DNA of 64,000 bases from assembly GCA_944381575.1 (NCBI GenBank), contig CALWLS010000002.1, forward strand, positions 124,001 through 188,000, read 5' to 3'. Each line of letters opens with the position of its first letter. Within the stretch, counting starts at the first letter, position 1. This document shows, piece after piece, positions 7,958 through 58,591 of the stretch. The notes beneath the pieces are model-generated. The model was given only the letters and a program-made list of their open reading frames with translations, was not told the origin of the DNA and did not search any database. Source of the stretch: an uncultured Lachnospiraceae bacterium. Lineage in GTDB: Bacteria; Bacillota; Clostridia; Lachnospirales; Lachnospiraceae. Both the position numbers and the translations under genes were made by a program.

Positions 7958-7992
7958 TACGCTTGTAAATAAAGAGGTCATCAAAACCGATT

Positions 7993-8080
7993 AAGGGGAG
8001 CTTGCACAAAGCAGGCTGAGACTCGGCTGTTATCGCCGTTACCCGTAACCTGATTTGGATAATGCCAACGTAGGGAAATA
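7993..8080 (+). promoter_or_regulatory. TPP riboswitch (thi-box)
   Basis: All the conserved thi-box elements are in order: AGGGG in the first stem, GCAGGCTGAGAC, ACCCGTAACCTGA, TTTGGATAATGCCAACG and the closing TAGGGA. TPP binding is expected to favour the terminator at 8137-8173 and switch the operon off. The stretch 7933-8256 otherwise holds only the promoter, this aptamer and that terminator. Confidence 0.97.
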
Positions 8081-8136
8081 TTCATTCCATGTTTCCGGAC
8101 CGCATAAGCGGCCTGATATACGGACACAGGATCTTT

Positions 8137-43955: not shown

Positions 43956-45077
43956 TCACGCCATGCTTATATGGTCGCCTCTTGTCTGCTCCACATGGCA
44001 TCCCACGCTTTCAACGCGCCTTACAAGGCCTTCCCTGTGTTCCGCAGCCTCGTCTCCCGTACAGAGCTTGCCGTCATATAGAAGGTATTTGCCCCGCACG
44101 TCTGAAGGCGAGAGGTTAGGCATTATGACATTGGCTCCGGCTAAAAGCCCTTTTTCCCTGCCGTGCTCATCTATGGTGCCAAGGGCTGTAGTTGCCGGAA
44201 GCAGCACCTCCGGGAACATAAGCCTCAATATACCAAGCATGTGCAGGGTGCTTTTTAAGCTTCCCTGAGGCTCATAGGCAAAACAGGTATCCTTATGGGG
44301 TATGAAGGGCCCCACGCCTATCATATGCGGTCCAAGCTCCTGCATGAATCTCAGATCCTTTAATATATGCTCCGGCCTCTGGCCCGGCGATTCCACCATG
44401 AATCCTGCTCCCACCTGATAGCCTATGCTTTTTAAGGTATAGAGACAGTTCTGCCTGTGCTCCATGCTCAAGGTATCCGGATGCAGAAAATGATAATGCT
44501 TAAGGTCTGAGGTCTCCTCCCTGAGGAGATACCTGTCTGCTCCTGCGTCAAAATAGGCCTGATAACTTTCCCTCTCCTTTTCTCCTATGGAAAGCGTAAC
44601 GGCGCAGTCAGGATGTGAGGATTTTATCAGTGAAATGATGCCGCATATCATTTCATCGGTATAGTAGGGATCCTCCCCTCCCTGCAGCACAAAGGTCCTG
44701 AAACCAAGCTCATATCCCTTATTGCAGCAGGACAGTATCTCATCAATATTAAGGCGGTATCTCTCGGCTCTTATATTTCCCTTATTGATCCCACAGTAGC
44801 GGCAGCCATTTTTGCAGTAATTTGTAAACTCAATAAGACCTCTGAGATAGACGGCTTTACCGTAGACCTTTTCCACGGTCTCCCTTGCTTTTAGGTACAG
44901 GTGTCTCTCCTCATTCTCAGTCCAGGGCTCTATCCTTCCCGGGATATCAAGTGAACCCTCCTCCCCGGGCATGCGATTTACAAAGCTGCAGGCAGGATAT
45001 ATCAGCCTTAAGAATTCCTCATCCGTAAGGTCTCTGTTTTTTGCGAGCTTATTTATAATATTTATTCTTGAAGCCAT
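43956..45077 (-). CDS. hydE: Radical SAM maturase HydE
   Basis: 373 residues. HydE is one of the three maturases of the [FeFe]-hydrogenase H-cluster and works on the Fe-CO/CN synthon to form the dithiolate-bridged site. The radical SAM motif CKNGCRYC (CxxxCxxC) lies near residue 92 and the SAM/core segments FVLQGGEDPYYTD and SIGEKERESYQAYFDAGADR follow. The extra cysteines that bind a second cluster in some HydE are mostly absent (only one Cys in GKLCTGDE), as in other functional variants. It is the last gene of the operon. Confidence 0.92.
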   Translation of the reverse strand: MASRINIINKLAKNRDLTDEEFLRLIYPACSFVNRMPGEEGSLDIPGRIEPWTENEERHLYLKARETVEKVYGKAVYLRGLIEFTNYCKNGCRYCGINKGNIRAERYRLNIDEILSCCNKGYELGFRTFVLQGGEDPYYTDEMICGIISLIKSSHPDCAVTLSIGEKERESYQAYFDAGADRYLLREETSDLKHYHFLHPDTLSMEHRQNCLYTLKSIGYQVGAGFMVESPGQRPEHILKDLRFMQELGPHMIGVGPFIPHKDTCFAYEPQGSLKSTLHMLGILRLMFPEVLLPATTALGTIDEHGREKGLLAGANVIMPNLSPSDVRGKYLLYDGKLCTGDEAAEHREGLVRRVESVGCHVEQTRGDHISMA

Positions 45078-45155
45078 AAGTTAAATACTTTTTTTCATTT
45101 AAAGTTTCTGCTATTTTTTCGTTCATCCCCTGCATTTCATGCTGTCTGTCCTGCT

Positions 45156-46412
45156 TCATGCTGAAAATGTCTCCCGCACCTCAGGAAGCATTGAAACAGA
45201 CCTCTCAAGTATGCCGGTAAACTGGGCTATCGCCGTACCGTAATTAGTTACCGGCACTCCCTGTGAGTACGCTCTCCTTATGCGGCTCAGCACTTCTCTT
45301 TCATTCAGCATGCATCCCCCACAGTGTATCACCAGATCGTAGCCTTTAAGATCCTCCGGAAAATCCTGGCCCGAGGCCGTGTCGATGGTCACGCGGCCTC
45401 CGGTATATTTTTCAAGCCACATCGGGATCTTGACCGTACCTATATCGTTACACTGTCTGTGGTGGGTACAGCCCTCGGCTATGAGCACGCGGTATGTCCC
45501 GTGCTGCCCGTCCGCCCTCATGGTCTCAAGATACCGGGCGCCCTTTACCGCTTCCTTAAGAAAGCCCTTATGGCGTGCCATCAGTATGGAAAATGAAGTA
45601 AGGGGTATCTCCTCCGGCACCACGGCGGATACCTCCTTAAATACCTGGCTGTCAGTTATGACGAGAGCCGGCCTTATCCCGTGAGTCTTAAGCACGTCTT
45701 CAAGCCTGTCCTCCTTTACGCATACAGGTATGGCGTCATTATCAAGAATGTCCCTTATAACCATCTGCTGAGGAAGTATTAGCCTCCCTTTAGGCGCCGC
45801 CTTATCTATCGGTATCACAAGCAGCACCATGTCCCCAGGCCTTATCAGATCCCCGCAGAGAAAGGTCCTGTCATTTTCAGGCTTAATAAGTCTCGCCAGG
45901 CGTTCCTTAAATTCATGTATGTTTGTACCGTCGAGAGCACTTACATGTATTATATTTTTTTCCCGGCCGTCTTTTAATGCGCCTGAAAATTCCGCGTCCT
46001 CTGCATCCTCCTCATGCCTGAGGTCGGCTTTGGTAAATGCTATTATATAAGGGACCTTGCGTTCATCAAAAAGACCTATAAGCTCATAGTCGCATTCCTT
46101 TAAGCCTTCTGAAGCGTCCACGGCAAGTACGGCGATATCCGTCTGGTCGAGTATTTTCCTTGTTTTCCTTACCCGAAGCTCACCCAGAGCTCCCTCGTCG
46201 TCAAAGCCCGGCGTGTCGGTTATCTCCACGGGACCCAAGGGTAAGAGCTCCATGGCCTTCTTTACCGGATCCGTCGTGGTGCCCGGCACATCGGAAACCA
46301 CGGAGAGATCCTGCCCCGTGACTGCATTTACAAGGCTTGATTTTCCTGCGTTCCTCCTGCCGAAAAATCCTATATGTACTCTTTCGCCCGAAGGCGTATC
46401 ATTCATGCTCAT
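45156..46412 (-). CDS. hydF: [FeFe]-hydrogenase maturation GTPase HydF
   Basis: 418 residues. HydF is the GTPase scaffold on which the diiron subcluster is assembled and from which it is handed to the hydrogenase. The GTPase motifs GRRNAGKSSL (P-loop), DTPGFDD (G3) and TKAD (G4) are complete. The C-terminal cluster-binding motif is present as GCTHHRQ (CxH) near residue 317 and HCGGC near 370, matching the family CxH...HCxxC pattern. It lies between the 442-residue nitrogenase-like gene and hydE in one operon. Confidence 0.93.
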   Translation of the reverse strand: MSMNDTPSGERVHIGFFGRRNAGKSSLVNAVTGQDLSVVSDVPGTTTDPVKKAMELLPLGPVEITDTPGFDDEGALGELRVRKTRKILDQTDIAVLAVDASEGLKECDYELIGLFDERKVPYIIAFTKADLRHEEDAEDAEFSGALKDGREKNIIHVSALDGTNIHEFKERLARLIKPENDRTFLCGDLIRPGDMVLLVIPIDKAAPKGRLILPQQMVIRDILDNDAIPVCVKEDRLEDVLKTHGIRPALVITDSQVFKEVSAVVPEEIPLTSFSILMARHKGFLKEAVKGARYLETMRADGQHGTYRVLIAEGCTHHRQCNDIGTVKIPMWLEKYTGGRVTIDTASGQDFPEDLKGYDLVIHCGGCMLNEREVLSRIRRAYSQGVPVTNYGTAIAQFTGILERSVSMLPEVRETFSA

Positions 46413-46505
46413 TTTCTATATCCTCATCCCGCCGCGGCCTAAACAGAATAATAAAGGCCGGCTTTAATACATACGGTTTATGTGAGCTCCGGCACATTGC
46501 TTACA

Positions 46506-47834
46506 TCATGTATCCAGTATAGTCACAAGATCCTTTACATCCCTGATGAAGCATCTCCCTGAAAATGCCACATGGGGAAGCCCGTGAAATACAGCAGTTT
46601 CCGGACACAGTGGCCTGTACAGCGGATCTGCTATCACATGCTTAACGCCCTTTAAAAGCTCTATACACTGCTCCTCGCCCTTAAAAGCCATGTCATTTTC
46701 AGTAAGAGCGGACTTTGAAAACTCAAGAGGACACAGCACCTTTACATTACAGCCGTATTGCAGCCTTATGGCTGCCGCAAGGGAACTCATGGTCACCGCC
46801 TCGCCTATGATTGCCACATCTATCTCGCGGGCCGGATCGGCTTTGTCGGCTGGACCCGGCTCTAACTTTCCTGCATCGCCGGCTTTTCTCCTGTGCCCTG
46901 CAGAGTTTTTGGCATAGCCTGTACTGCAGGTTCCTGCTGCCGCCGCCCTTTTTATATCCTCTGAAAGCACTTCCGCAAACTTTCCTGTCGGAACCCCGAG
47001 TACATACGGTGTGCCAAACTCCTCATAGAGATATTTCGCAAGGGGGATACCCATGGCCGAGACCACCAAATTAACATCAGCGTTAAGATCAGGCAGCAGT
47101 ATCCCGTCAATATCAACGCCGTTTTTTATATCTCCGCTTCCAAAGGCAAAACTTGTTGAAATGTCAATATCTCTGTTGACAAATGCCTGTTTTATCGAGG
47201 TTATCGTGCGAAAATCACCAAAATCCAGTGGGGACGCCCCTAAAATGTTGATAACCCGCCTGTTATTTTTGTCTGATTTATCAGAACTTTGTTGATAAAT
47301 TTTGTCGTGTTCCGACAAACTTTGGTCACAAATTGCACTTTTTATGTTCCTGATATCATTAAGCCCGTACTTTTTTTGAAGTATCTTCAGCATACAGCTT
47401 ACATACTCCTTAAGGGCCGCTCCGCCTCCGGCAATGTAGTCATGCATGGAATTGGTGTGTACGGCAAAGGCCGGTATCCCCGTCTTTTTTTCTATCATTG
47501 AGGCTATGGCGTTATAATCCGTGCCGTTAAGATAGGGTATCGGAGAACCGCATATGGTTATAAATGCGGGCTTAAGCCTTTCAGCCGCATCAGAGACATC
47601 CTCCACGACCTTTTTATCATTTCCCATGATGGCGTCTATCTCCGTAAGTCCGGTGATATATATGAGGCTGTCCTTATCGTACCAGCGTGTCTCGTCATGA
47701 GTATTATAGGTCGAATTGCAGCCGGAGGGATCATGCATCACTATCATGCCCCCAAGCTCAAAAAGGGCCGAGCATACTCCTGAGGCATCCGCGGTATAGC
47801 ACGGAGTTACTATATATGAATTTTCTATACGCAA
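46506..47834 (-). CDS. Nitrogenase component 1-like protein, type B (442 residues)
   Basis: A NifD/NifK/NifE/NifN superfamily member. Three cysteines match the P-cluster/[4Fe-4S] ligand layout: C12 (TPCYTADASG), C39 (HDPSGC) and C95 (TICGSPIP). The 27- and 56-residue spacings are close to those of NifD and NifK. Downstream blocks NILGASPLDFGDF and LPHVAFSGRC recur in the second half of the 885-residue fusion protein, so the two are paralogues. A low-complexity insert (about residues 310-340) contains SAGHRRKAGDAGKLEPGPAD. Starts at TTG 47834, overlapping the previous gene by 10 nt with a G-rich ribosome site. Not NifDK proper; role inferred as a scaffold or reductase subunit. Confidence 0.85.
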   Translation of the reverse strand: MRIENSYIVTPCYTADASGVCSALFELGGMIVMHDPSGCNSTYNTHDETRWYDKDSLIYITGLTEIDAIMGNDKKVVEDVSDAAERLKPAFITICGSPIPYLNGTDYNAIASMIEKKTGIPAFAVHTNSMHDYIAGGGAALKEYVSCMLKILQKKYGLNDIRNIKSAICDQSLSEHDKIYQQSSDKSDKNNRRVINILGASPLDFGDFRTITSIKQAFVNRDIDISTSFAFGSGDIKNGVDIDGILLPDLNADVNLVVSAMGIPLAKYLYEEFGTPYVLGVPTGKFAEVLSEDIKRAAAAGTCSTGYAKNSAGHRRKAGDAGKLEPGPADKADPAREIDVAIIGEAVTMSSLAAAIRLQYGCNVKVLCPLEFSKSALTENDMAFKGEEQCIELLKGVKHVIADPLYRPLCPETAVFHGLPHVAFSGRCFIRDVKDLVTILDT

Positions 47835-49324
47835 CTTTCACACCCCCATGCTTTTCTGACAATGATATCTTCTACGTCCTTTTCCGTCTTAAAGGCCTCC
47901 TCCATAAGTCCGCACAGCCTTATGATCCCGTCAAAGCCGAAAAGGCCTATGCCGTATACTCCGTTCACGAAATGCTTTGTACCTGTAAACCATGCGGCCT
48001 TCTGTCCGATGGCGATGGCTCCGGGCGCATTTCCATGGGAGACCCTGCCCTCCGGATGAACGATGGAATATATGTTCAGTTCCGGAAATTCCTTCCTTAA
48101 GGATGTATATGCAGCCTCCTCTTCAGGGTTGAAGGTTTCCGTATATACGCCTGTTACCTTAAATCCATGTGTGAGAAGGAGCGCCGCAAGCTCCAGAGGT
48201 CTTGGATGGAATGAAGAATCTATGCGTATCTCGGTATCCCCCACTGTCCTCAGGGCTTGCTTAAGGGCCCTGCCGCAGTCCTCCCTTAAGCTTTCTATCT
48301 CACGATCCATAAGCTCATGAAGCTCTGTATGCTCTCCATTATTTTTCCATGCAGACCCCATGCAGTTTTCATCTATCAGATCCGCAAGCTCATGCCACTG
48401 CCGCTCTATTGTATCCATATCAAAGGCCGCCGGCATGTAAAATGCGGCCCTGCCAAGACGGCCGCCCAGTCTTTCGAGAGCCATTTTTGCCGCAGGCTGG
48501 ACAGCCATAAGCATGGCGCTTTTCCCTATGTCAAGGAATTCCTCATATGTAATTAATGTCGCCATTTCCTTAAATGTAATGGCGTTCATCTGCGGCCTTA
48601 AGCCCCTGCCGTCTTCTATCGCCTTAAAGTAGCTCTCAGGCAGATTTTTAAGTACAGGATTTACCGTCCGGCTTAAAACATTTGCCGCGGGACTTCCGGA
48701 AACAATTTCTATGATCTTATAAATGTCGCAGGTCTTATAGAGCGGAAGCTCGCTGCCTATAAGGCTGATGAGCGTGCTGTCCTGCTTTACGGGCTCTATC
48801 AGATCGTACATTGCCGCCCTGAGCTTTATATCCGGCGCCGGCTTTGCCTTCTGCAGTATGCAGTCCATAAAGCATCTTACAAAACGGATGTCCGGATATC
48901 TTTTTTCGAGCTCGCCGTAGATATGATCAAGGTTTGCTCCAAGATAGTGATGTACGCACACAGTAAACAGCAGTACCGCCGGAGGCATTTTCCCCGCCTC
49001 CTTAAGCCTGTCAAGACAGCGTGAAACTCCCTCTATGGTGACATCATCTATATCGGACATGGTCATGTCCTCTTCATCTAAGAGCACAAAGGAAAACCTG
49101 TCCTCAGTGTTCATTTCGGCGGCAGTCAGGACCACTCCCCTCATGCACCCGTCAGCGCAGACAAATATCTCCCTTGTCTCCGGGATCAGCATGCCTATAT
49201 GTACTATATTCCAGGTCCCGTGGGCCGGTGAATTAAATTCCAGTCCCGGATAAAAGGGCTTTGGAAATGCCGCATCGCCTATATTAACGCAGCCTTCCCT
49301 CGTCCCCGGTTTAACTTTCTCCAT
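47825..49324 (-). CDS. Nitrogenase component 1-like protein, type A (499 residues)
   Basis: A second component-1 superfamily protein. It resembles the N-terminal half of the 885-residue fusion: FNSPAHGTWNIVHIG, IFVCADGCMRG and FTVCVHHYLGANLD align with SFNSPGAEGFG, LVVSPGCCGR and ICITCVDALLGTD there. Cluster-ligand candidates are C56/C60 in VCADGC and the Cys of FTVC near residue 122; the usual first ligand is not evident. The stop overlaps the type B start by 10 nt, so A and B are probably made in equal amounts as a heterodimeric partner pair. Confidence 0.83.
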   Translation of the reverse strand: MEKVKPGTREGCVNIGDAAFPKPFYPGLEFNSPAHGTWNIVHIGMLIPETREIFVCADGCMRGVVLTAAEMNTEDRFSFVLLDEEDMTMSDIDDVTIEGVSRCLDRLKEAGKMPPAVLLFTVCVHHYLGANLDHIYGELEKRYPDIRFVRCFMDCILQKAKPAPDIKLRAAMYDLIEPVKQDSTLISLIGSELPLYKTCDIYKIIEIVSGSPAANVLSRTVNPVLKNLPESYFKAIEDGRGLRPQMNAITFKEMATLITYEEFLDIGKSAMLMAVQPAAKMALERLGGRLGRAAFYMPAAFDMDTIERQWHELADLIDENCMGSAWKNNGEHTELHELMDREIESLREDCGRALKQALRTVGDTEIRIDSSFHPRPLELAALLLTHGFKVTGVYTETFNPEEEAAYTSLRKEFPELNIYSIVHPEGRVSHGNAPGAIAIGQKAAWFTGTKHFVNGVYGIGLFGFDGIIRLCGLMEEAFKTEKDVEDIIVRKAWGCESCV

Positions 49325-49389
49325 ATCTAAAATACCGTATAAACTTAAACTTTACCTTGCCCGCCGGTCTAATACAGCCTGACAAAACT

Positions 49390-49650
49390 TCAGCTTATTA
49401 CATTTGAATAGGCGATCTTTACGGACACTCCCTGAAGCCTTCCTATCTTCCCGCCCAGACTGCTTATCACATCCTGGGGAGCGTCGATGGCTATGGTTAT
49501 GATATTTATATTCTTTTCCCTGTAGGGGATGCCCATTCTGCCAATGATGTATTCCCCGGCCTCATGCAGCAGCTCGTTGATCTTTTCCGAGCAGCTGCTG
49601 TCCTCTGCGATTATGGCTATGACCGCAACTCTCTGTCCTTCCGGTGACAT
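49390..49650 (-). CDS. TM1266-family [FeFe]-hydrogenase system protein
   Basis: 86 residues with an ACT-like fold pattern: VAVIAIIAEDSSCSEKINEL, EYIIGRMGIPYREKNINIIT and GGKIGRLQGVSVKIAYSNV. The family (TM1266 / TIGR03959) is known as a putative regulator that travels with hydE, hydF and hydG. I use ATG 49650 because AAAGGAGG sits 5 nt upstream and the protein then has family length; an ATG 15 codons earlier is possible. Confidence 0.88.
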   Translation of the reverse strand: MSPEGQRVAVIAIIAEDSSCSEKINELLHEAGEYIIGRMGIPYREKNINIITIAIDAPQDVISSLGGKIGRLQGVSVKIAYSNVIS

Positions 49651-49714
49651 CCATGCCTCCTTTATACTCACTTCCTGCCTGTCCGCGACGTGCATTTTTC
49701 AGATCCCTGATATA

Positions 49715-50734
49715 TCAGCAGATACGTGGAAGCAGCTCTCCTCCCGGCTGTGAAAGTATGGTCTCGCTGCCTATCTCGGTCTCCATTATCACCCTGCCCG
49801 GATGATCCTCAGTGACCCTTCCTATGACTGCGGCATTTCCTGAGTAAGGCATGCTCCTTAAGACTCCAAGTATCTTTTCCGATTCGCTTTCCGGCGCGAT
49901 TATCACCAATCTTCCCTCACAGGCAAGATATAAAGGCTCCAGTCCCAGCATTCCGCAGACTCCCTTTACCTTTGGATCCACCGGAATGTCCGTCGCCTTT
50001 ATATGTATGCCAACATTGCTCTGTCCCGTTATCTCATAGAGCACCGTTCCGACTCCGCCCCTTGTGGCATCGCGTATTACGTGTATATCCTTTGAGACCT
50101 CAAGCATGGCCTTTACCGTATTCCAGAGCGGAGCGCAGTCGCTGGTTACATCGGCCTCTATGCCGAAATCCTCCCTCTGAAGCATTATGGTGCAGCCGTG
50201 TCTTCCCACATCTCCGCTTACTATGACCACATCCCCCGGCTTTGCAAGGGCTCCCGAGGTATTTACACCCTCAAGGATCCTTCCGACTCCGGTGGTGGTT
50301 ATGAATACTCCGTCCACCTGTCCCCTTCCGGCAACCTTGGTATCTCCGGAAACTATCTTCACTCCGGCCTCCTTAGCCGTAAGCTCCATTGCGGAGGCTA
50401 TCTCCTCAAGCTTATCCATCGGAAAGCCCTCCTCGATAACGAAGGCGCAGGAAAGGTATAACGGCTCGGCCCCCATGCAGGCAAGATCGTTTACCGTCCC
50501 GCATATGGAGAGCTTGCCTATATTTCCTCCCGGAAAGAACTGAGGCGAAACTATAAATCCATCCGTAGTCATGGCTATGCGCCCCTTCGGTGCCTCAAGG
50601 ACCGCGGCGTCGTCCGCGGTAAAATACGGATTGGTAAAATGCGCCTTAAAAACCGAATCTATAAGCTCCGAGGTCTGGCGTCCTCCTGCCCCGTGAGCGA
50701 GTGTCACTGTTTTGCCTAAATTTTCAATATTCAT
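49715..50734 (-). CDS. hypE: Carbamoyl dehydratase HypE
   Basis: 339 residues. HypE takes the carbamoyl group from HypF onto its C-terminal cysteine and dehydrates it with ATP to a thiocyanate, the source of the cyanide ligands in [NiFe] hydrogenases. The essential terminal motif PRIC is intact. The PurM-like segments LAHGAGGRQTSELI, GDTKVAGRGQVDGVF and DATRGGVGTVLYEI are present. Eleven nt after hypD, in an operon with no hydrogenase structural gene in this window. Confidence 0.96.
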   Translation of the reverse strand: MNIENLGKTVTLAHGAGGRQTSELIDSVFKAHFTNPYFTADDAAVLEAPKGRIAMTTDGFIVSPQFFPGGNIGKLSICGTVNDLACMGAEPLYLSCAFVIEEGFPMDKLEEIASAMELTAKEAGVKIVSGDTKVAGRGQVDGVFITTTGVGRILEGVNTSGALAKPGDVVIVSGDVGRHGCTIMLQREDFGIEADVTSDCAPLWNTVKAMLEVSKDIHVIRDATRGGVGTVLYEITGQSNVGIHIKATDIPVDPKVKGVCGMLGLEPLYLACEGRLVIIAPESESEKILGVLRSMPYSGNAAVIGRVTEDHPGRVIMETEIGSETILSQPGGELLPRIC

Positions 50735-50744
50735 AACTTTCTCC

Positions 50745-51788
50745 TTACAGCTCTCCTCCGTACTGATAGTAGGCGGAGCAGGCTCCCTCTCCTGATACCA
50801 TGCAGGCTCCGACCGGATGAGTCGGCACGCAGGCCGTGCCGAAGCACGGACAGTCTGAAGGCTTTATAAGCCCCTGCAGCACCTCTCCGCAGCGGCAGGC
50901 TTTATTTACCTTTCCGCTTATCTTTGGAAGCGCGTACTTTTTCCTTGCGTCATAGGCTGCGTATTCATCCTTAAGGCGCCTGCCCGAGCCCGGTATTATG
51001 CCGAGGCCGCGCCACTCGCAGTCGTACGCCTCCATGTACTTATTCATTATGCTCTTTGCCGCAGGGCTTCCCTCGTCTGTCACTACCCTCGGATAGGCGT
51101 TTACAAAGAACGGCTTTCCTTCCCGTACCTTGATCACTGCCGCCGCAAGAGCGGAAAGTATCTCATTTGCCGTAAATCCTGATACCACTCCGCTCACCCC
51201 TCTTTTGGCAAGCTCGATGCATTCAGAATTTCCCATTATGGCGTTTACATGACCGGGATAGAGATAAACATCGACATAATCCTTAAGCATCTCATAGGCC
51301 TTCGGCATGGTCTTATTTGCCGTAAGCAGGGAGAAGTTATCGATGCCGTCCTTTTCCGCCATGGAAACGGCTATGCAGCTTGCAGGCGTCGTTGTTTCAA
51401 AGCCCACTGATAAAAATACCACCTGCTCGTCCCTGTGGGCCGCGGCGTAGCTTTCCGCATCCATGGGGCTGTATACGATATCTATCTTTCCGCCCTGAGC
51501 CCTGGCTCCCGCAAGGCTCATTTCAGAGCCCGGTACTCTTATCAGATCCCCAAAGGTACATACGGTGCAGCCCTTTTCCAGCGCCAGCATGATTGCCTCA
51601 TCTATAAATGCCACCGGCGTAACGCATACCGGACAGCCCGGACCCGATATGAGCTCGATATTATCAGGCAGCACCTGTCTGATGCCGAGACGGAATATCT
51701 CATGGGTATGAGTGCCGCAGACCTCCATTATACGCAGCTTCGGGCCGTCGTAGCTCTTTATTATATCTATGAGTTCCTCGTTTTTCAT
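50745..51788 (-). CDS. hypD: Fe-(CN)2CO scaffold protein HypD
   Basis: 347 residues. HypD is the [4Fe-4S] protein that with HypC builds the Fe(CN)2CO unit. The catalytic CGTHTHEIFR near residue 24, GPGCPVCVTP near 51 (redox Cys pair), and the C-terminal cluster region CRCGEV plus CPCFGTACVPTHPVGACMV are all conserved. It follows hypC by 12 nt. The full set of cysteines predicts an active protein. Confidence 0.96.
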   Translation of the reverse strand: MKNEELIDIIKSYDGPKLRIMEVCGTHTHEIFRLGIRQVLPDNIELISGPGCPVCVTPVAFIDEAIMLALEKGCTVCTFGDLIRVPGSEMSLAGARAQGGKIDIVYSPMDAESYAAAHRDEQVVFLSVGFETTTPASCIAVSMAEKDGIDNFSLLTANKTMPKAYEMLKDYVDVYLYPGHVNAIMGNSECIELAKRGVSGVVSGFTANEILSALAAAVIKVREGKPFFVNAYPRVVTDEGSPAAKSIMNKYMEAYDCEWRGLGIIPGSGRRLKDEYAAYDARKKYALPKISGKVNKACRCGEVLQGLIKPSDCPCFGTACVPTHPVGACMVSGEGACSAYYQYGGEL

Positions 51789-51800
51789 ATGCCTGACCCC

Positions 51801-52025
51801 TTATCTCGCCGAAGTTTTCCTTAAATTTCCAATGAGCTCATCCGACTGCTCATCCTCATCCTCCGTTATCTTTGCTATGGCAACTCCCGCGTGTACCATA
51901 ACATAGTCCCCCGGCTCCAGTGATTCCAGCATTGCCGAAGAAACCTCTAATTTAGCGCCGTTAGAATCTATCAGCGCAGTTCCGTCCTGTACTTTAAGTA
52001 CTTTGGCCGAAAGTCCTACACACAT
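51801..52025 (-). CDS. hypC: Hydrogenase maturation chaperone HypC
   Basis: 74 residues, normal length. The N-terminal cysteine that carries the iron synthon is present as MCVGLSAKV (Cys2). The second half has GDYVMVHAGVAIAKI, the family signature. Placed between hypF and hypD. In [NiFe] systems HypC also contacts the hydrogenase large subunit; no such protein is encoded nearby, so its client here may be one of the nitrogenase-like proteins. That last point is inference. Confidence 0.94.
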   Translation of the reverse strand: MCVGLSAKVLKVQDGTALIDSNGAKLEVSSAMLESLEPGDYVMVHAGVAIAKITEDEDEQSDELIGNLRKTSAR

Positions 52026-52059
52026 GATTTTTATCCTCCCCGTTTTACTACGCTGTTTT

Positions 52060-54873
52060 TTACAAATGCTTCATTGCGTATACCGCCTGGCCCAAGGCTA
52101 TGCCTCCGTCATTCGGCGGTATGAGATGATGTATCAGCACATTCATCCCGCATCTTTCAAGTTCATTTTTTACATATCCCAAAAGCAGGGTGTTCTGAAA
52201 TACGCCTCCGCTTAAGGCCGCCGTCCTGCAGGCCTCAGGTTTTATTTCCGCTGCCGCGGCCACCGCGTCGGCCGTCATCTCCGAAAGGGCAAGATGGAAG
52301 TTCAGGGCCGTCCTTTTTATGTCCGTTCCCTTAAGACGTTCCCTTAACACTGCCTCCATCAGGCCGTTAGTATTAAGTATGATGCCTCCCTCACCTGCAG
52401 CATGCAGGGTATCTATATCAAGACATTCAGATCTGCCGCGGCTTCTTCTATTAAAATAAGCTGTGACGTCAAATTCCTTTGCTCCTTCCATTGCCGCGTA
52501 CATGAGCGCAGTTGAGGCCTCGCCCTCAAAGCTTGAAGCCTTCTTTATGCCGAGTACGGCGCTCACGGCGTCAAAGAGTCTGCCGGCACTGGTCGAAGGC
52601 ACCGTATTTATCATACGGTCAGACATGGCGGATATCACGAGATATTCGTCCTTACTGCAGAGCCCGAGCCTTAGACACATATCCATGCCCTTCTCTTTTC
52701 CGTACAGCCCGTTTATCATGGAAGCCGCTATGCGCCAGCCCTCCTTAGCGGACATATCTCCTCCGGCCTGTTTAAAGCCGTCGATATGTCCAAGCCGTTC
52801 AAAGCCGTCCCAGGTGCTGAAAAGTATCTCTCCTCCCCATATGGTTCCGTCCGTTCCATAGCCGGTACCGTCAAAGGAGGCGCCTATCACCGGAAGCTCC
52901 CGTCCGTTTTCAGCCATACAGGAAAGTATGTGGGCGTAATGATGCTGCAGCTCAAAGATCTTTATTTCCTGCAGATCTTCCTTACCTTCCTCACGGTTTT
53001 TCTGAAGCCCCGTCTGGCCGTCTTCCCGGCTGTCCTTTTGACGGTATTTATCTGATCCCTGAATACGTATTTCACCGGCATTTTCAGGGCGCTGTTGACT
53101 ACCATCTTCTCCGCCGCTGCCCCGAGGCTCTTGCCAAGGACCGCCTTTAGTACCGGCCCGAATACCACTGCCACCGCCTTGGTGACCGTTGCTGTTATAA
53201 ATGTTATTATCGGTATGACCGTCGCGTTCAGCAGCGCATATATCAGATCCGCCAACGGAGCTAATATCGTCTGCAGCAGCGCGATAATTCCCAAAGGATC
53301 CGGTATCATATCCCTTCTCCTCCCATCTTTTCTTCAATTCATAGGCAAGCTCTCTCGACCTGTACAGCGGATGCATGTCGCAGGCTATGGCCTCAGGCTT
53401 TGCCTCCAGCAGTGAACAGAACCTCCCTATGGTCTCGTCAAGAGCGTTTAAGGTCCTTACGTCGCCAAGGTCCCCCACATATGGCGAAGGATAGAACAGC
53501 TGTCCCCTGCCTATGCAGAAGCTGTTTTTAAGCTCGCCTCCGATGCCTATCACCGAAGGTATGCCTTCCTTATGCGCCTCTGGCGCAGACTCAAACAGCA
53601 CCGGCAGCGGGGCATAGCCCCTTGAGCGCCGTATCATGTACGGCTCATCTTCAAACATGTCCATAACGGTGTCGTCCGCCCTTATGCGTATGAGCCTGTT
53701 GTGTGAAAGTATGGCGTCGCATAACGGCAGCAGCTCCTTCAACGCGTCATTATCATCCCTGCATATGGGAGCCCCGGATTCGTTGGCGCTTGTCATCACA
53801 AGACAGTCCGTCATGCTGATGCCGTCGTCATAATCAAACAGCAGCATCTGCAGCGGAGCGTATGGAAGCATTACCCCAAGCTTTGGATTTCCCGGTGCTG
53901 TCTCTTCGGATATCCCCGGCTTAAATTCAGCCGCTTCTTTACTTACTGTTTTCCTTTTTTCAAGCAGGATTATAGGCTTTTGATGCCCCGTTATAAGCTC
54001 TCTTATGATATCAGGACCGATAATGCACTCCCTTTCCACCGTCTCGATATCCTTCATCATGACGGCAAAGGGCTTTGCCGGCCTGTTTTTTAATCTGCGC
54101 AGCCTCTTTACCGCCTCACCGTTAAGGGCGTCGCAGCTTAAGTGAAATCCGCCTATGCCCTTTATCGCGACGATGCCGCCCTCCATGATCATATTCCTTG
54201 CGTGGGTTATGGCTTCCCGGCCTCTTAAGCCCGGACCGTCCGGTCCAAGGATATACACTTCAGGTCCGCAGTCATTACAGCAGACGGGCTGGGCGTCGTA
54301 GCGTCTCGTTTCAGGATCGTGATATTCCTGAAAGCATTTTCCGCACATTGGAAATTCCTTCATGCTCGTGCGTTCCCTGTCATAGGGAAGTCCCTCTAAA
54401 ATGGTCATGCGTGGCCCGCAGTTCGTGCAGTTTATAAAGGGATGCAGATACCTTCTGTCTTCGGGATCATAAAGCTCCTTCCTACAGTCCTCGCATATGG
54501 CTATATCGGGAGATATGTATATCTCTCCCTTTGTACGGCCGCTTTCAATGATCGAAAAATCCTCGTATACAGCCGGCTCTTTCTCCGTATCGGTTCCTGA
54601 CCCATGCTCTTTGCCGTTAAGCTCCTCCACGTCCGCCCTGATTATTGAAGCCCTTTTTGGCGGAGCTTCTTTAAGCAGCTTTAAGAAGGTCCCGCACTGC
54701 ATATCAGTGCCCTGGGCGATTATCTCCACATAAGGCCCCTTGTTGCACACAGATCCCCTGATCCCTGCCTCCATGGCGTGACGGCTCACCGTGGGCCTGA
54801 AGCCCACCCCCTGTACTATGCCGTACACACGGATCCTTAAGGTCTTTGTTTTTTCCTTTTCACTGCCTGTCAT
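52060..54873 (-). CDS. hypF: Carbamoyltransferase HypF with a long insertion
   Basis: 937 residues, about 170 longer than usual HypF. HypF uses carbamoyl phosphate and ATP to load HypE. The order is normal: acylphosphatase-like domain (RVYGIVQGVGFRP), two zinc fingers (CEDCRKEL...CTNCG and CGKCFQEY...CCNDCG), a YrdC-like domain (KRPAKPF-type RLKNRPAKPFAVMMK), then the Kae1-like domain with LQHHYAHILSC and GASFDGTGYGTDG. Between ACDMHPLYRSRELAYELKK and LQHHYAH there is an extra hydrophilic Gly/Asp/Gln-rich stretch of roughly 110 residues (about nt 52980-53310). A second reading frame lies inside this insert. The start overlaps the fusion gene's stop by 14 nt. Confidence 0.92.
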   Translation of the reverse strand: MTGSEKEKTKTLRIRVYGIVQGVGFRPTVSRHAMEAGIRGSVCNKGPYVEIIAQGTDMQCGTFLKLLKEAPPKRASIIRADVEELNGKEHGSGTDTEKEPAVYEDFSIIESGRTKGEIYISPDIAICEDCRKELYDPEDRRYLHPFINCTNCGPRMTILEGLPYDRERTSMKEFPMCGKCFQEYHDPETRRYDAQPVCCNDCGPEVYILGPDGPGLRGREAITHARNMIMEGGIVAIKGIGGFHLSCDALNGEAVKRLRRLKNRPAKPFAVMMKDIETVERECIIGPDIIRELITGHQKPIILLEKRKTVSKEAAEFKPGISEETAPGNPKLGVMLPYAPLQMLLFDYDDGISMTDCLVMTSANESGAPICRDDNDALKELLPLCDAILSHNRLIRIRADDTVMDMFEDEPYMIRRSRGYAPLPVLFESAPEAHKEGIPSVIGIGGELKNSFCIGRGQLFYPSPYVGDLGDVRTLNALDETIGRFCSLLEAKPEAIACDMHPLYRSRELAYELKKRWEEKGYDTGSFGNYRAAADDISSVGGSDICAAERDGHTDNNIYNSNGHQGGGSGIRAGTKGGPWQEPRGSGGEDGSQQRPENAGEIRIQGSDKYRQKDSREDGQTGLQKNREEGKEDLQEIKIFELQHHYAHILSCMAENGRELPVIGASFDGTGYGTDGTIWGGEILFSTWDGFERLGHIDGFKQAGGDMSAKEGWRIAASMINGLYGKEKGMDMCLRLGLCSKDEYLVISAMSDRMINTVPSTSAGRLFDAVSAVLGIKKASSFEGEASTALMYAAMEGAKEFDVTAYFNRRSRGRSECLDIDTLHAAGEGGIILNTNGLMEAVLRERLKGTDIKRTALNFHLALSEMTADAVAAAAEIKPEACRTAALSGGVFQNTLLLGYVKNELERCGMNVLIHHLIPPNDGGIALGQAVYAMKHL
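52962..53309 (-). CDS. Nested reading frame inside the hypF insertion
   Basis: A 115-codon frame on the same strand as hypF but shifted. It begins ATG 53309 with a strong GGAGGAG site 9 nt upstream. The product has a hydrophobic N-terminal half (LGIIALLQTILAPLADLIYA, then VIPIITFITATVTKAVAVV) and a highly basic C-terminus (KTARRGFRKTVRKVRK). Codon choice here (ATA, CTG, GTA, GCG) looks more like the neighbouring genes than the overlapping hypF frame, which uses GGT, GAT and ATT. It could be an overlapping small membrane protein or the relic of an inserted gene. No homologue recognised. Confidence 0.4.
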   Translation of the reverse strand: MIPDPLGIIALLQTILAPLADLIYALLNATVIPIITFITATVTKAVAVVFGPVLKAVLGKSLGAAAEKMVVNSALKMPVKYVFRDQINTVKRTAGKTARRGFRKTVRKVRKICRK

Positions 54874-57517
54874 ATATTATATCCGTCTGTCTTCCAGATA
54901 CCGCAAAATGCGGAAGATCTATAAATATAAGCTCCCTGTCTAAAAAGCTTTTTATATAAGGTATAGTCACAGCATCGGCAATTATGATGTCTGGGTCAGT
55001 TTCAGCAATGATCCTTTTAAGACCGGCCTCCCCGGACATGGCTCTTGCAGCGCCCTCCGACTTAAACCAAGTAGCCGCATGCGCCTCCTTTGCCCCAAGC
55101 TCCATGATAAGCCTGCAAAGCTCTGCGGCAAGGATCTCCTGGTGGACTATGAGCACTCTTTTTCCCTTATATATCTCCTTATTCGGATCCTCCGGCGTTA
55201 TTTCTGATAATATCCTGTCCGCCCCGGGATACGCCGTAATGAACGGTACTCCAAAACGTTCCTCTAAGTACTGTGCCGCCTTCAGTCCTGACGGCGCTAC
55301 GACTATATTTTTATTAGCATATGCGGCCCTTTTAAATGCATCAAGACCGCCGTCCGCTCCGTAGCAGCAAATGTCATCAGTTCCAAGGGCGTCTGCAAAA
55401 AACCGTCCCGGATCCTTTGAAAGCATATCCAGCGGCGAAGCCCCTATTATGCCCGTAAAGCCATCGGCCGGCAGGCGTTTCTGATCCCCTGACAGGCCTT
55501 CCGTGATACAGTCTGCCGGCCCCGTGTCTGCGGCTTCAGACTCAGACCTTTCAGCTGCAAAGGCCTTAAACAGCTCGAGGTACGCCTTTTCAGCCCCTTC
55601 GTCATAAAGTCCCGTGCCTGTGGTATCTATCCCTATGACCTTGAGCCCCGTATCCTTTTCCGCCATCCGCTTTATGGCCTTATAGTCGGTTCCTATAACG
55701 GCAGGCACCGGCGTGCCTATTACTGCGGCAAAGTTCGCGTCTATCACGCTGGCCGCCCGCTTTATTTTTTCCACTAAATGATCATCCCTGCCGAGGATGG
55801 CGTCCATATCCCTTAAGCCCGCGCTGAATATTGCGCTCTTTTCATCAAGCCATCTCGGCTCATCAAATCCGCAGACATTCCCGGCGCAGCCTCCGGCGTC
55901 ACATATAACGGTAAGCCCTCCCAGTCCGTAAAATACCGAGGACGCTCCGGACTGATCCGGAGCAAAGGGAGGAAGGAACAGTCTCATCCCCCGGACGTCT
56001 GTTTTCTGGTCCTTAATAAGTTCCACACCGCTCTGCTCCAGGACATCCTGCTCAGCCGATCCTCCTTTGACATTTTCCAAAGACTCTGCCAATGGCACCG
56101 GCTTAAGCACCCGGACTCCCTCCGGCCCTTCCTTTTTATCGGAATAATATCTCAGCCTTACTCCATCCTCAGGGGCTTTGGCTGCGGAATTATACAACCC
56201 GTACAGTTCTTCAAAAAGATGCCTTACCCCGGAGAAACTAAATGGCTGGGTGTCCCCATTCCAGTTTAAATGCCTGCTCTCCGGATGGTAATAGGCCGCA
56301 TCCTTTCCTATGGTGATGTCAATTTTCAGTCCGTCATTTTCATAATAGAGCATTCCCGGATCAAGGTTCGACATTATCTCAGTGTCCGGAGAAAGCTCCG
56401 CTATTTTCCTGATATATATGAAGTTCTCTTCTGTGACCGTGCCGAATATCTCCGATACGGTAAAGCCCTCCCGGATCAGGGCATAAGCAAGCTCAAAGGG
56501 GTCTCCGTTCATTATCTCCCCTACCGCAAAGGAAGGGAGCTTTTCCCTGCCCTTAAAAATACCTTTAAATCTCTCTATGGCCTCTCTGGCAGCTTCCTTT
56601 TGCCTGGATACATCCACGCTAAAGCCAAGAGCCTTTCCGAGGGCCTTGTACTGGGACTCTATCTTATCCATCTGGTACAGACGCTTAAGCTCGATATAAG
56701 GTATCTTAAGGCGTTCCTCCAGATCAGCCGCTGCCGGCCTTGCTTCAGGGTTTAAGACCACATTGAAATTGGCCTCCCCCATATCCGTAAATTCATCATA
56801 ATCCCGGCAGGCCGATACCTCCCGTATCTTCTTTATTCCCATGGAACGGAAGACATCATAGAGCTCACAGTCCTTTGCGAGGGGCGAGAAAAAGCCCAGT
56901 ATGTTTATACTCGTGCTTACTTTTTTTCTTTCCTCAAGCAGCGAATATATGGACTGCCTTATATGCACCATTGGAGGCTTTCTTCCCTCTCTTGTAAGCG
57001 CATACATATAGCTTGGCCTCACCGGAACCCCGGCCTTTTCCTCAGCCTTTTTAGACACTCTGTCCATGTCTGTGCCAAGCAGGGCGTCCACGCAGGTAAT
57101 GCATATCATAATGACAGAAGGCTTTTTCCCAGTCCTTTTTAAGACCTCCTCAGCGACCCTGGCCGCAGCCTCAGGGATCTTATTTAAATGCCTTCCTGTG
57201 ACGATATCCGCCTCGTCCATATCTAAAAAGAAAAACCGGTCCCTGTATTCTGTCCTGTCCCCTATGCCTGAGGTATTTCTGCCGCAGCATCCCGGAGACA
57301 CTACTAAAAGCACCGAGCCCGGAACAGTAAGCGAGGCCCTCTTTACGCCAAAACCCTCAGCCCCCGGTGAGTTAAATGAAAGCGCCGCCGGGGAACTCAG
57401 TATCAGATGCTCCGCCGACTTAAACTGTAACGGAAGCCCGTCCATGCCGAGGCCATTTAGTTCTGAGGCCGTTATCTTAAACGCCCTGCCCTTAAATTGA
57501 TCCTTATCCATACCCAT
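54860..57517 (-). CDS. Fused nitrogenase component 1-like protein (A-B, 885 residues)
   Basis: Two component-1-like modules in one chain. The first (about 1-430) has SPGCCGRNTSG near residue 75 and ICITCVDALLGTDMD near 136 and matches the separate 499-residue type A protein. The second (about 510-885) has DAGGCAGNVCGFDEPRW near 560, FAAVIGTPVPAVIGTDY and GIIGASPLDMLSKD, ending LPHFAVSGRQ; it matches the 442-residue type B protein. In the second module the first and third cluster cysteines of type B are replaced (FAPDQSG, VIGTPVP), leaving the central GGC. The gene lies directly after the NifH-like gene. This may be an assembly scaffold or a catalytic pair; which one is unclear. Confidence 0.85.
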   Translation of the reverse strand: MGMDKDQFKGRAFKITASELNGLGMDGLPLQFKSAEHLILSSPAALSFNSPGAEGFGVKRASLTVPGSVLLVVSPGCCGRNTSGIGDRTEYRDRFFFLDMDEADIVTGRHLNKIPEAAARVAEEVLKRTGKKPSVIMICITCVDALLGTDMDRVSKKAEEKAGVPVRPSYMYALTREGRKPPMVHIRQSIYSLLEERKKVSTSINILGFFSPLAKDCELYDVFRSMGIKKIREVSACRDYDEFTDMGEANFNVVLNPEARPAAADLEERLKIPYIELKRLYQMDKIESQYKALGKALGFSVDVSRQKEAAREAIERFKGIFKGREKLPSFAVGEIMNGDPFELAYALIREGFTVSEIFGTVTEENFIYIRKIAELSPDTEIMSNLDPGMLYYENDGLKIDITIGKDAAYYHPESRHLNWNGDTQPFSFSGVRHLFEELYGLYNSAAKAPEDGVRLRYYSDKKEGPEGVRVLKPVPLAESLENVKGGSAEQDVLEQSGVELIKDQKTDVRGMRLFLPPFAPDQSGASSVFYGLGGLTVICDAGGCAGNVCGFDEPRWLDEKSAIFSAGLRDMDAILGRDDHLVEKIKRAASVIDANFAAVIGTPVPAVIGTDYKAIKRMAEKDTGLKVIGIDTTGTGLYDEGAEKAYLELFKAFAAERSESEAADTGPADCITEGLSGDQKRLPADGFTGIIGASPLDMLSKDPGRFFADALGTDDICCYGADGGLDAFKRAAYANKNIVVAPSGLKAAQYLEERFGVPFITAYPGADRILSEITPEDPNKEIYKGKRVLIVHQEILAAELCRLIMELGAKEAHAATWFKSEGAARAMSGEAGLKRIIAETDPDIIIADAVTIPYIKSFLDRELIFIDLPHFAVSGRQTDIIYDRQ

Positions 57518-57594
57518 ATCGATTTATCCCGAAATAATTGCCTGCTGACCGCCCAGACATTTAAAAACATCATGCAAACTGCCTGCCAGAGGGC

Positions 57595-58353
57595 TCAGCC
57601 CTCTCCAAGAAGCTTTTTTGCAAGCTCCATAAAAGTCCTGCTTACCGGAAGATCCATATCTCCCTCTATCACCGTCTTGCCCTGGTCCTCATAGTAATTG
57701 ATATCCTTTGACCTCGGTATCTCTCCTATTATCTCAAGGCCGTTGGGATCCGTAAAAGCGTGGACCTTTGCATTTTCATCCTCTACATTCCTGTGGTTTA
57801 AAATGACTCCCCTTACTCTTGCGTAACTCCTGTCCTCAAAGTTTTTTACGGCCTGATAAATGTTATTGGCGGCGTAAAGAGCCATTTTTTCTCCGGAGGT
57901 CACTATCAGCACCTCGTCCGCGTAGCCCTCCCTTATGGGAGCCGCAAAACCTCCGCAGACCACGTCGCCGAGCACATCGTACAGGACCACGTCCGGCTTC
58001 CAGGTCTCAAAGAGCTTCATTTCCTCCAAAAGCTGGAATGTGGCTATTATGCCTCTTCCAGCGCAGCCAAGCCCCGGCGTCGGTCCTCCGGTCTCTATGC
58101 AGAGTATCCCTCCATAGCCGACCTTTGATATATCCTCTATGCTTTCAGGCTCCGCATCCATATCTCTCATATAATTCATGACAGGGAGCAGCGGTTCTCC
58201 GTTAAGCAGATTGATGGTCGAATCCGCCTTGGGATCACAGCCTATCTGAATCACACGCTTGCCCAGGCTTGCAAACGCCGCTGCCAAATTAGCCGTTACC
58301 GTTGATTTTCCTATGCCGCCCTTGCCGTAGATCGCTAATTTTAATATGCCCAT
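57595..58353 (-). CDS. NifH-like Fe protein
   Basis: 252 residues, the ATP-driven electron donor of the nitrogenase superfamily. P-loop GKGGIGKST (residues 10-18), GCDPKADST (38-46), [14 protein letters not shown] with Cys97 and Arg100, and [16 protein letters not shown] with Cys133. Both [4Fe-4S]-bridging cysteines are at almost the same positions as in Azotobacter NifH. It is shorter than classical NifH and distinct from ParA-type ATPases because it has both cysteines. First gene of the 11-gene operon, preceded by an attenuator-like leader. Confidence 0.93.
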
Positions 58354-58557
58354 TGCCTTTTATCCTCTTAGTCCTAAGTCACCTTAAACGTACGCTGCCC
58401 TAAAGCCATAAAAAAGCCCTTTTATGCCGGAAATGACATAAAAGGGCATGCTGAGCCTTTCAGCACACGTCCTTTATCCATGTCTTCGGGCTTGATAAAT
58501 CTCGCTGTCAGTACTTTGGGACATGCTGTATCATCGCATTGATATTTTTTTAACTAT
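58354..58557 (-). promoter_or_regulatory. Structured leader of the nitrogenase-hydrogenase hybrid operon
   Basis: About 200 nt between the inferred transcription start and the NifH-like start codon. Pairings seen: CATGTCC with GGACGTG (58519-58525 with 58466-58472) enclosing a TTTATC/GATAAA hairpin, then TGCTGA/TCAGCA (58449-58465), then an intrinsic terminator (58410-58447). I do not recognise a known riboswitch class. Transcription attenuation is inferred. Confidence 0.6.
58410..58447 (-). terminator. Leader terminator before the NifH-like gene
   Basis: GCCCTTTTATG pairs with CATAAAAGGGC (11 bp) followed by six T on the minus strand, about 55 nt before the start codon. Read-through is needed for operon expression. 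Confidence 0.88.
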
Positions 58558-58563
58558 ATGTGG

Positions 58564-58591
58564 ATTATAGCAAAAACACCGCCGCAGTCAA
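58564..58591 (-). promoter_or_regulatory. Promoter of the hybrid operon
   Basis: TTGACT, 16-bp spacer, TATAAT on the minus strand. The -35 box lies in the loop and 3' arm of the upstream gene's terminator. Confidence 0.75.

Follow-up and report, generated by a model that had tools for sequence, protein, structure and literature searches.

What single process could call at once for nitrogenase-like proteins, for the HypC, HypD, HypE, and HypF proteins of [NiFe]-hydrogenase maturation, and for the HydE and HydF proteins of [FeFe]-hydrogenase maturation? The question is raised by an 11-gene operon of an uncultured Lachnospiraceae bacterium, located on contig CALWLS010000002.1 in a 64-kb stretch of DNA that we analyzed as a whole and call the window. 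Judging by gene content and sequence comparison, the operon would provide a way to build the [2Fe] portion of the H-cluster of [FeFe]-hydrogenase independently of HydG, likely as a replacement for HydG, and we put the probability of this reading at roughly 0.7. It is favored because HydG is nearly excluded from the genomes that carry the gene set (1/50), [FeFe]-hydrogenase is constant in them (50/50), and the accompanying HydE and HydF are ordinary. The Hyp genes support it as well: HypC, HypD, HypE, and HypF were present in 53/53 loci, yet matches to PF00374, which covers [NiFe] or Ech/complex-I-like proteins, were rare (8/50 carrier genomes, and 2/6 in a separate sample of the family), and HypCDEF in most carriers therefore cannot serve a recognizable [NiFe]-hydrogenase.

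Gene content and conservation of the operon

All 11 genes are on the reverse strand, with intergenic gaps of −14 to +93 nt, and a predicted promoter-like site precedes the first of them, in agreement with the sequence-only reading of this DNA, which had described a leftward operon with small gaps or overlaps. In order from the promoter, they encode a NifH-like Fe protein (57595..58353; PF00142), a fused component-1-like, NifEN-like A-B protein termed An-Ac (54860..57517; PF00148), HypF carbamoyltransferase (52060..54873; TIGR00143), HypC (51801..52025; TIGR00074), HypD (50745..51788; TIGR00075), HypE with the C terminus PRIC (49715..50734; TIGR02124), a TM1266-type regulator-like protein (49390..49695; TIGR03959), a component-1-like A subunit with a C-terminal CxxC (47825..49324; component-1 fold in its AlphaFold model), a component-1-like B subunit with a TTG start (46506..47834; PF00148), the GTPase/scaffold HydF (45156..46412; TIGR03918), and the radical S-adenosylmethionine (SAM) maturase HydE (43956..45077; TIGR03956). 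The B subunit and all proteins assigned by TIGR models scored above the respective cut-offs. The flanking genes that were scanned are unrelated to the operon. The host genome (G000) comprises 2.0 Mb in 18 contigs and has 97.4% completeness.

An A-half alignment was used to scan an 84,980-species collection, and 491 stretches were found to encode a relative; the best 80 of these 491 were taken as module loci. Gene content was determined by tblastn in those loci with 9.9 kb or more of downstream sequence, of which there were 53. NifH, An, Ac, HypF, HypC, HypD, and HypE were all present in 53/53, followed in frequency by A (51), B (47), TM1266 (35), a second NifH (31), HydF (13), and HydE (10). 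NifH was at most 1.5 kb upstream of An in 75/75 testable loci, and An-Ac was fused into a single called open reading frame (ORF), as in the window, in 17/80. In the NifH tree, the two Fe proteins fall into distinct clades (support 100/98 and 100/100), and where both occur, each stands upstream of its own component-1 pair; the commonest form is thus NifH with An-Ac plus NifH2 with A-B, and the window has a single NifH, whose nearest labeled relative is that of a Lachnospiraceae metagenome-assembled genome (MAG; L103, 83% identity).

Carriers span Bacillota and Actinomycetota and include Blautia, Roseburia faecis, Coprococcus comes, Eubacterium ramulus, Anaerobutyricum hallii, Clostridium ljungdahlii, and C. 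ragsdalei, together with many MAGs labeled Coriobacteriaceae or Atopobiaceae. The linked set is therefore one conserved unit that recurs across many genera and two or more phyla; linkage in the window genome alone, which would have refuted the sequence-only reading, was not what we found. A chance patchwork of three operons was rejected because gene set and order are conserved. We searched the flanks for further conserved partner genes and found none that were credible; the two largest clusters of unlabeled ORFs look like antisense shadows of module genes, and the remaining clusters were small or distant. The module is a real, widely conserved, and largely uncharacterized unit.

We also examined 100 genomes of the same family, one per genus and including G000. 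The AB protein query gave matches at E ≤ 1e-20 in 10/100, and the close form of the module was present in six (G000, G025, G069, G071, G083, and G091), with the second component-1 pair on a separate contig in G071 and G091. A distant nitrogenase-like set adjoins Peripla_BP_2 or FecCD transporter genes in G004 (contig C24), G048 (C192), G059 (C13), and G072 (C3), and the stretches read there contain neither Hyp nor Hyd genes.

Carrier genomes lack HydG and retain [FeFe]-hydrogenase

From the 80 loci, 50 module genomes were chosen by locus length. HydG scored above the family cut-off in one, C. thailandense (683 bits). Each of the 50 gave a weaker match to the HydG model, at 50 to 85 bits, resembling that of the window HydE (52.9 bits); in C. 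ljungdahlii, this weak match is HydE itself (376.9 bits with a HydE cut-off of 254.6), and all 50 genomes have a HydE-like protein. PF02906 matches, denoting [FeFe]-hydrogenase, were found in every one, and no PF00374 match (E ≤ 1e-5) was found in 42. Thirty hydrogenase loci of module genomes were fetched and 29 gave an ORF; P1-like, P2, and P3 motifs, the letters of which we assumed for this check, were present in 25/29, and among the remaining four, two had no P2 by the pattern used and two were seemingly the wrong ORF.

The family sample gave the same picture. Across its 100 genomes, there were matches for HydG in 45, HydF in 52, HypD in 20, PF00374 in 14, and PF02906 in 89, and all six module genomes were positive for HydF, HypD, and PF02906 and negative for HydG. 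Among HydF-positive genomes of the sample, HydG was found in 0/6 with the module and 43/46 without it (Fisher P = 4e-6, kinship ignored); comparing the 1/50 module genomes with the same 43/46 gave P = 1.6e-22, again with kinship ignored. The window genome had no HydG match above the cut-off. The single PF02906 protein found there is a monomeric [FeFe]-hydrogenase of group B (contig C9; TIGR04105, 607 bits, cut-off 450), and one HypD is present. The genome also encodes two Ech/complex-I-like PF00374 subunits, with 8/50 other carriers having PF00374 matches; the two subunits lie on contig C11 in two complex-I-like/Ech-like gene sets (L229 and L230), one of them adjoined by a HypB-like (cobW family) GTPase.

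A related gap has been described in acetogens. According to the portions of PMC9431212 covered here, eight acetogenic clostridia all have HydE and HydF but only three have HydG by known motifs, and all have HypCDEF but only three have HypA and HypB, for which no straightforward explanation was offered; an atypical HydG or scavenged ligands were put forward as possibilities. Among the HydG-lacking acetogens in those portions, the module occurs in C. ljungdahlii and C. ragsdalei; HydG is absent from both by the family model, and [NiFe]-hydrogenase is present.

HydE and HydF belong to their usual families

Trees were built for HydE (29 rows, 15 from module loci and 14 partnered with HydG) and HydF (32 rows, 14 and 18). 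Module and HydG-partnered rows interleave, with five (HydE) and four (HydF) label changes on the best trees. TM1266 adjoins 9/20 of the HydG loci read, in the order TM1266-HydE-HydG-HydF in five, and A-B separate TM1266 from HydF in the window as well as in six of the 80 module loci. From the intermixed trees and these TM1266 contexts, it therefore appears that the back end of the pathway was kept and the front end swapped; HydE and HydF look ordinary in type, with the preceding step exchanged. The module thus resembles HydEFG maturation in that its HydE and HydF score above cut-off and form no clade apart from HydG-partnered proteins, but differs from it in having Hyp and nitrogenase-like genes linked in place of HydG.

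In HydF, C315, C364, and C367 are invariant, as is CX3CX2C in HydE (11 rows each). HypC keeps Cys2 and His45 (18 rows), HypD its three Cys motifs in 48/48 proteins from other loci, and HypE its PRIC end in 49/49 complete proteins from other loci. By sequence, then, the motifs of HypF, HypE (C-terminal Cys), HypC, and HypD are intact, and these proteins share with HypABCDEF maturation of [NiFe] enzymes both the family scores and the motifs; the module differs in having no hypA or hypB. The window HypF has a long low-complexity insert (residues ~514 to 663) between two Kae1-like Pfam matches.

The nitrogenase-like proteins fall outside named families

In 54 aligned NifH rows, the P-loop Lys, C97, and C133 are invariant, the two cysteines being presumably cluster ligands. 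The A subunit has invariant C56, C60, and C123 and nearly invariant C495 and C498, and the B subunit has invariant C39 (44 rows). The AlphaFold model of A (predicted local distance difference test score [pLDDT], 84.9) has the nitrogenase component-1 fold. For the fused AB protein, the top Foldseek match is the fused NifEN 9i0g and the top sequence matches are NifE/NifEN; confidence in its model is moderate (pLDDT, 75.3). The likeness to the NifEN scaffold has limits, with 10 to 19% identity in structure alignments and 109 bits to nifE with a cut-off of 505.1.

CfbCD, DPOR/COR, and methylthio-alkane reductase are two-component, ATP-driven nitrogenase-like reductases, and DPOR and methylthio-alkane reductase share the component-1 fold with the module proteins. 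The NifH-like protein reached 298.8 of 394.35 bits for nifH and the best nifD score was 37.5 of 653.55; the former also fell below the CfbC, BchL, and BchX cut-offs, and the component-1-like proteins reached no NCBIfam family cut-off. Membership in nitrogenase, F430 CfbCD, DPOR, or COR was rejected on these scores, and the grouping with a family of settled function that would have refuted the sequence-only reading was not seen among them; for methylthio-alkane reductase, the comparison is one of fold, its family model being absent among those scanned.

A candidate riboswitch precedes the operon

Among L103 to L182, there are 76 loci whose leader spans at least 400 nt, and 62 of them have a small structured RNA element, about CUGACGGCAAGG-hairpin-CCGAGCGGGAA, no more than 450 nt ahead of NifH (E up to 0.5). 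Half of these copies (31) lay outside the training set, some as near-duplicates of trained ones. For a covariation test, five near-duplicates were removed from 30, leaving 25 copies outside the training set; the inner helix was paired in 89.6% of cells and had ten two-sided changes, each reached in 0/500 shuffles, with the caveat that these copies were themselves found with the covariance model and so lean towards its structure. Further pair types of the inner helix were no better than shuffles (316/500), and the outer stem was weaker (60% paired). In several Bacillota leaders, a terminator-like hairpin could be seen by eye downstream of the element, and in 16 loci, all labeled Coriobacteria, Atopobiaceae, or actinobacteria, it lies directly against the start codon. 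A variant in C. ljungdahlii, C. ragsdalei, and C. thailandense was missed by the covariance model and seen by eye.

The window copy is divergent (58470..58521, reverse strand; covariance model R1, 20.3 bits, E = 0.075) and was in the training set. On the same strand, a consensus scan placed the predicted promoter-like site upstream of it (58564..58591; TTGACT-16-TATAAT, TG-extended, 11/12 positions) and an intrinsic-terminator-like hairpin of 13 pairs with a T tail between it and the NifH start (58416..58447); the hairpin would allow attenuation, and the leader RNA, together with this terminator, probably governs how the operon is expressed. Leaders of the window and seven other loci had no Rfam 15 match at gathering scores, and two leaders searched at E up to 1 and 2 gave two chance-level matches in all. 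We therefore describe the element as a candidate riboswitch class without a Rfam 15 match, ahead of the operon in Bacillota and Actinomycetota. Its occurrence ahead of hydrogenase or HydG genes was rejected: 80 loci gave three credible matches, all of them module-NifH leaders from the training set, and four more at E = 0.6 to 2.4. Elsewhere in the window, there is a thiamine pyrophosphate (TPP) riboswitch at 7984 to 8094 (forward strand, 57.1 bits).

Alternative explanations and prior descriptions

The conserved linkage points, as the sequence-only reading proposed, to a single pathway around an Fe-CO/CN cofactor. The further suggestion of a novel cofactor, one that the A/B proteins themselves use, is less supported. 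In its full form, the module would make a novel Fe-CO/CN metallocofactor used by A/B and An/Ac for ATP-driven reduction, with HydE and HydF co-opted. Two full Fe-protein/component-1 pairs do resemble a catalyst plus scaffold, as NifDK and NifEN do, and the invariant C56 and C60 and the nearly invariant CxxC tail of A also fit; however, this explanation, which we consider unlikely, does not account for the absence of HydG from 49/50 genomes that all have [FeFe]-hydrogenase, or for HydE and HydF of ordinary families; an alternative route to the known H-cluster fits these observations better.

The genes might instead be co-located but act apart, HypCDEF serving [NiFe] enzymes, HydEF working with scavenged CO and CN or an unrecognized HydG substitute, and the nitrogenase-like pairs reducing, for example, a tetrapyrrole. 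Consistent with such separate functions, the distant relatives beside transporter genes in four genomes have no Hyp or Hyd neighbors in the stretches read, the window genome has Ech-like subunits, and the portions of PMC9431212 covered discuss ligand scavenging and cite ~1% activation with HydE and HydF only. Against them stand the same genes in 53/53 loci across phyla, the 42/50 module genomes with no PF00374 match, and the single dedicated leader RNA at the head of the unit, and we regard this explanation as improbable.

Several observations weigh against a HydG-independent route. In the family sample, 38/100 genomes have PF02906 but neither HydG nor HydF, and in each of the 17 of these that were sampled (L231 to L247), a hydrogenase retains P1-like (TSC[CS]P) and P3 motifs, with P2 as well in 13/17; HydG absence alone is therefore not diagnostic, and the family may hold a third arrangement for [FeFe]-hydrogenase maturation. 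The genomes sampled, all negative for HydG, HydF, and the module, were G008, G017, G022, G032, G039, G055, G096, G089, G073, G087, G065, G086, G043, G042, G016, G003, and G019. Three other genomes (G011, G047, and G048) are HydF positive and HydG negative without a close module, and C. thailandense has both the module and HydG. In G000, C. ljungdahlii, and C. ragsdalei, [NiFe]-type enzymes may be additional clients of HypCDEF. Resolution of the HydE tree is poor, and its well-supported branches force one label change (three for HydF); in both trees, shuffled labels cluster less than the module and HydG labels do. One row (L227, from G048) was labeled module by mistake, the full module being absent there. 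The genome-wide HydF search covered the family sample, mostly with the 16 best first-look candidates scored, and many of the 50 module genomes are MAGs of unstated completeness. Finally, the covered portions of PMC9431212 assign C. autoethanogenum a HydG whose C-terminal motif is atypical and name atypical radical-SAM candidates in the other acetogens.

The earlier statement that no described system has this set needs correction, as Dos Santos et al. (2012) mention the linkage, in the portions of PMC3464626 covered, in one speculative sentence on NifHEN-like genes beside hydrogenase maturation genes; "hydrogenase" appears once in the main text. Their NifHEN-like proteins of gut Firmicutes share with ours two closely linked copies (in Coprococcus catus and Dorea longicatena), the hydrogenase-maturation association, and few conserved Cys, but those portions mention neither HydG nor a leader RNA. 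No literature joining the linkage with the missing HydG was found in a search that left preprints and most subscription papers outside. The main text of PMC9004356, on C. autoethanogenum transposon data, does not mention maturation, hypF, nif, or hydE, and when two C. ljungdahlii hydrogenases were searched against PDB sequences, no C. autoethanogenum hydrogenase structure could be recognized.

A possible route to the H-cluster

In the covered portions of PMC11736057 and PMC12752695, HydG makes CO and CN from tyrosine, giving Fe(Cys)(CO)2(CN), which is passed to HydE, whereas HypCDEF makes Fe(CN)2CO (PMC9431212, portions covered). The ligand ratio must therefore change between the HypCDEF unit and the HydE substrate, and it is here that we would place the reductases. 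In the HydG-independent route, HypF and HypE would make cyanide from carbamoyl phosphate and HypC-HypD would carry an Fe-CN-CO unit, as both do when [NiFe] enzymes are matured. The ligand ratio would be changed by the two ATP-driven nitrogenase-like reductases, acting in a NifEN-like manner as scaffold and reductase, possibly through loss of a cyanide or through CO formation from CO2, and the remodeled Fe unit would be handed to HydE, then HydF, and then the apo-hydrogenase. A more far-reaching proposal, to which we give somewhat less than an even chance, is that nitrogenase-family enzymes act as ATP-driven organometallic synthases, turning the HypCD-made Fe-CN-CO unit into an Fe(CO)2(CN) synthon for HydE, perhaps with CO from CO2, in a second, tyrosine-independent H-cluster route of gut bacteria and industrial acetogens that is controlled by a new riboswitch class.

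If the HydG-independent reading is correct, it would explain the missing HydG left unaccounted for in PMC9431212. It would also become possible to test where the CO ligand comes from when Hyp-type assembly is anaerobic, with C. ljungdahlii as an available laboratory host for the module. Nitrogenase-like proteins would gain a new role, and [NiFe] and [FeFe] maturation would be chemically linked. There would then be two unrelated ways to begin an H-cluster, and the HydG-free way would be the one used by the gut H2 producers Blautia, Roseburia, Coprococcus, and Anaerobutyricum and by the gas-fermenting acetogen C. ljungdahlii.

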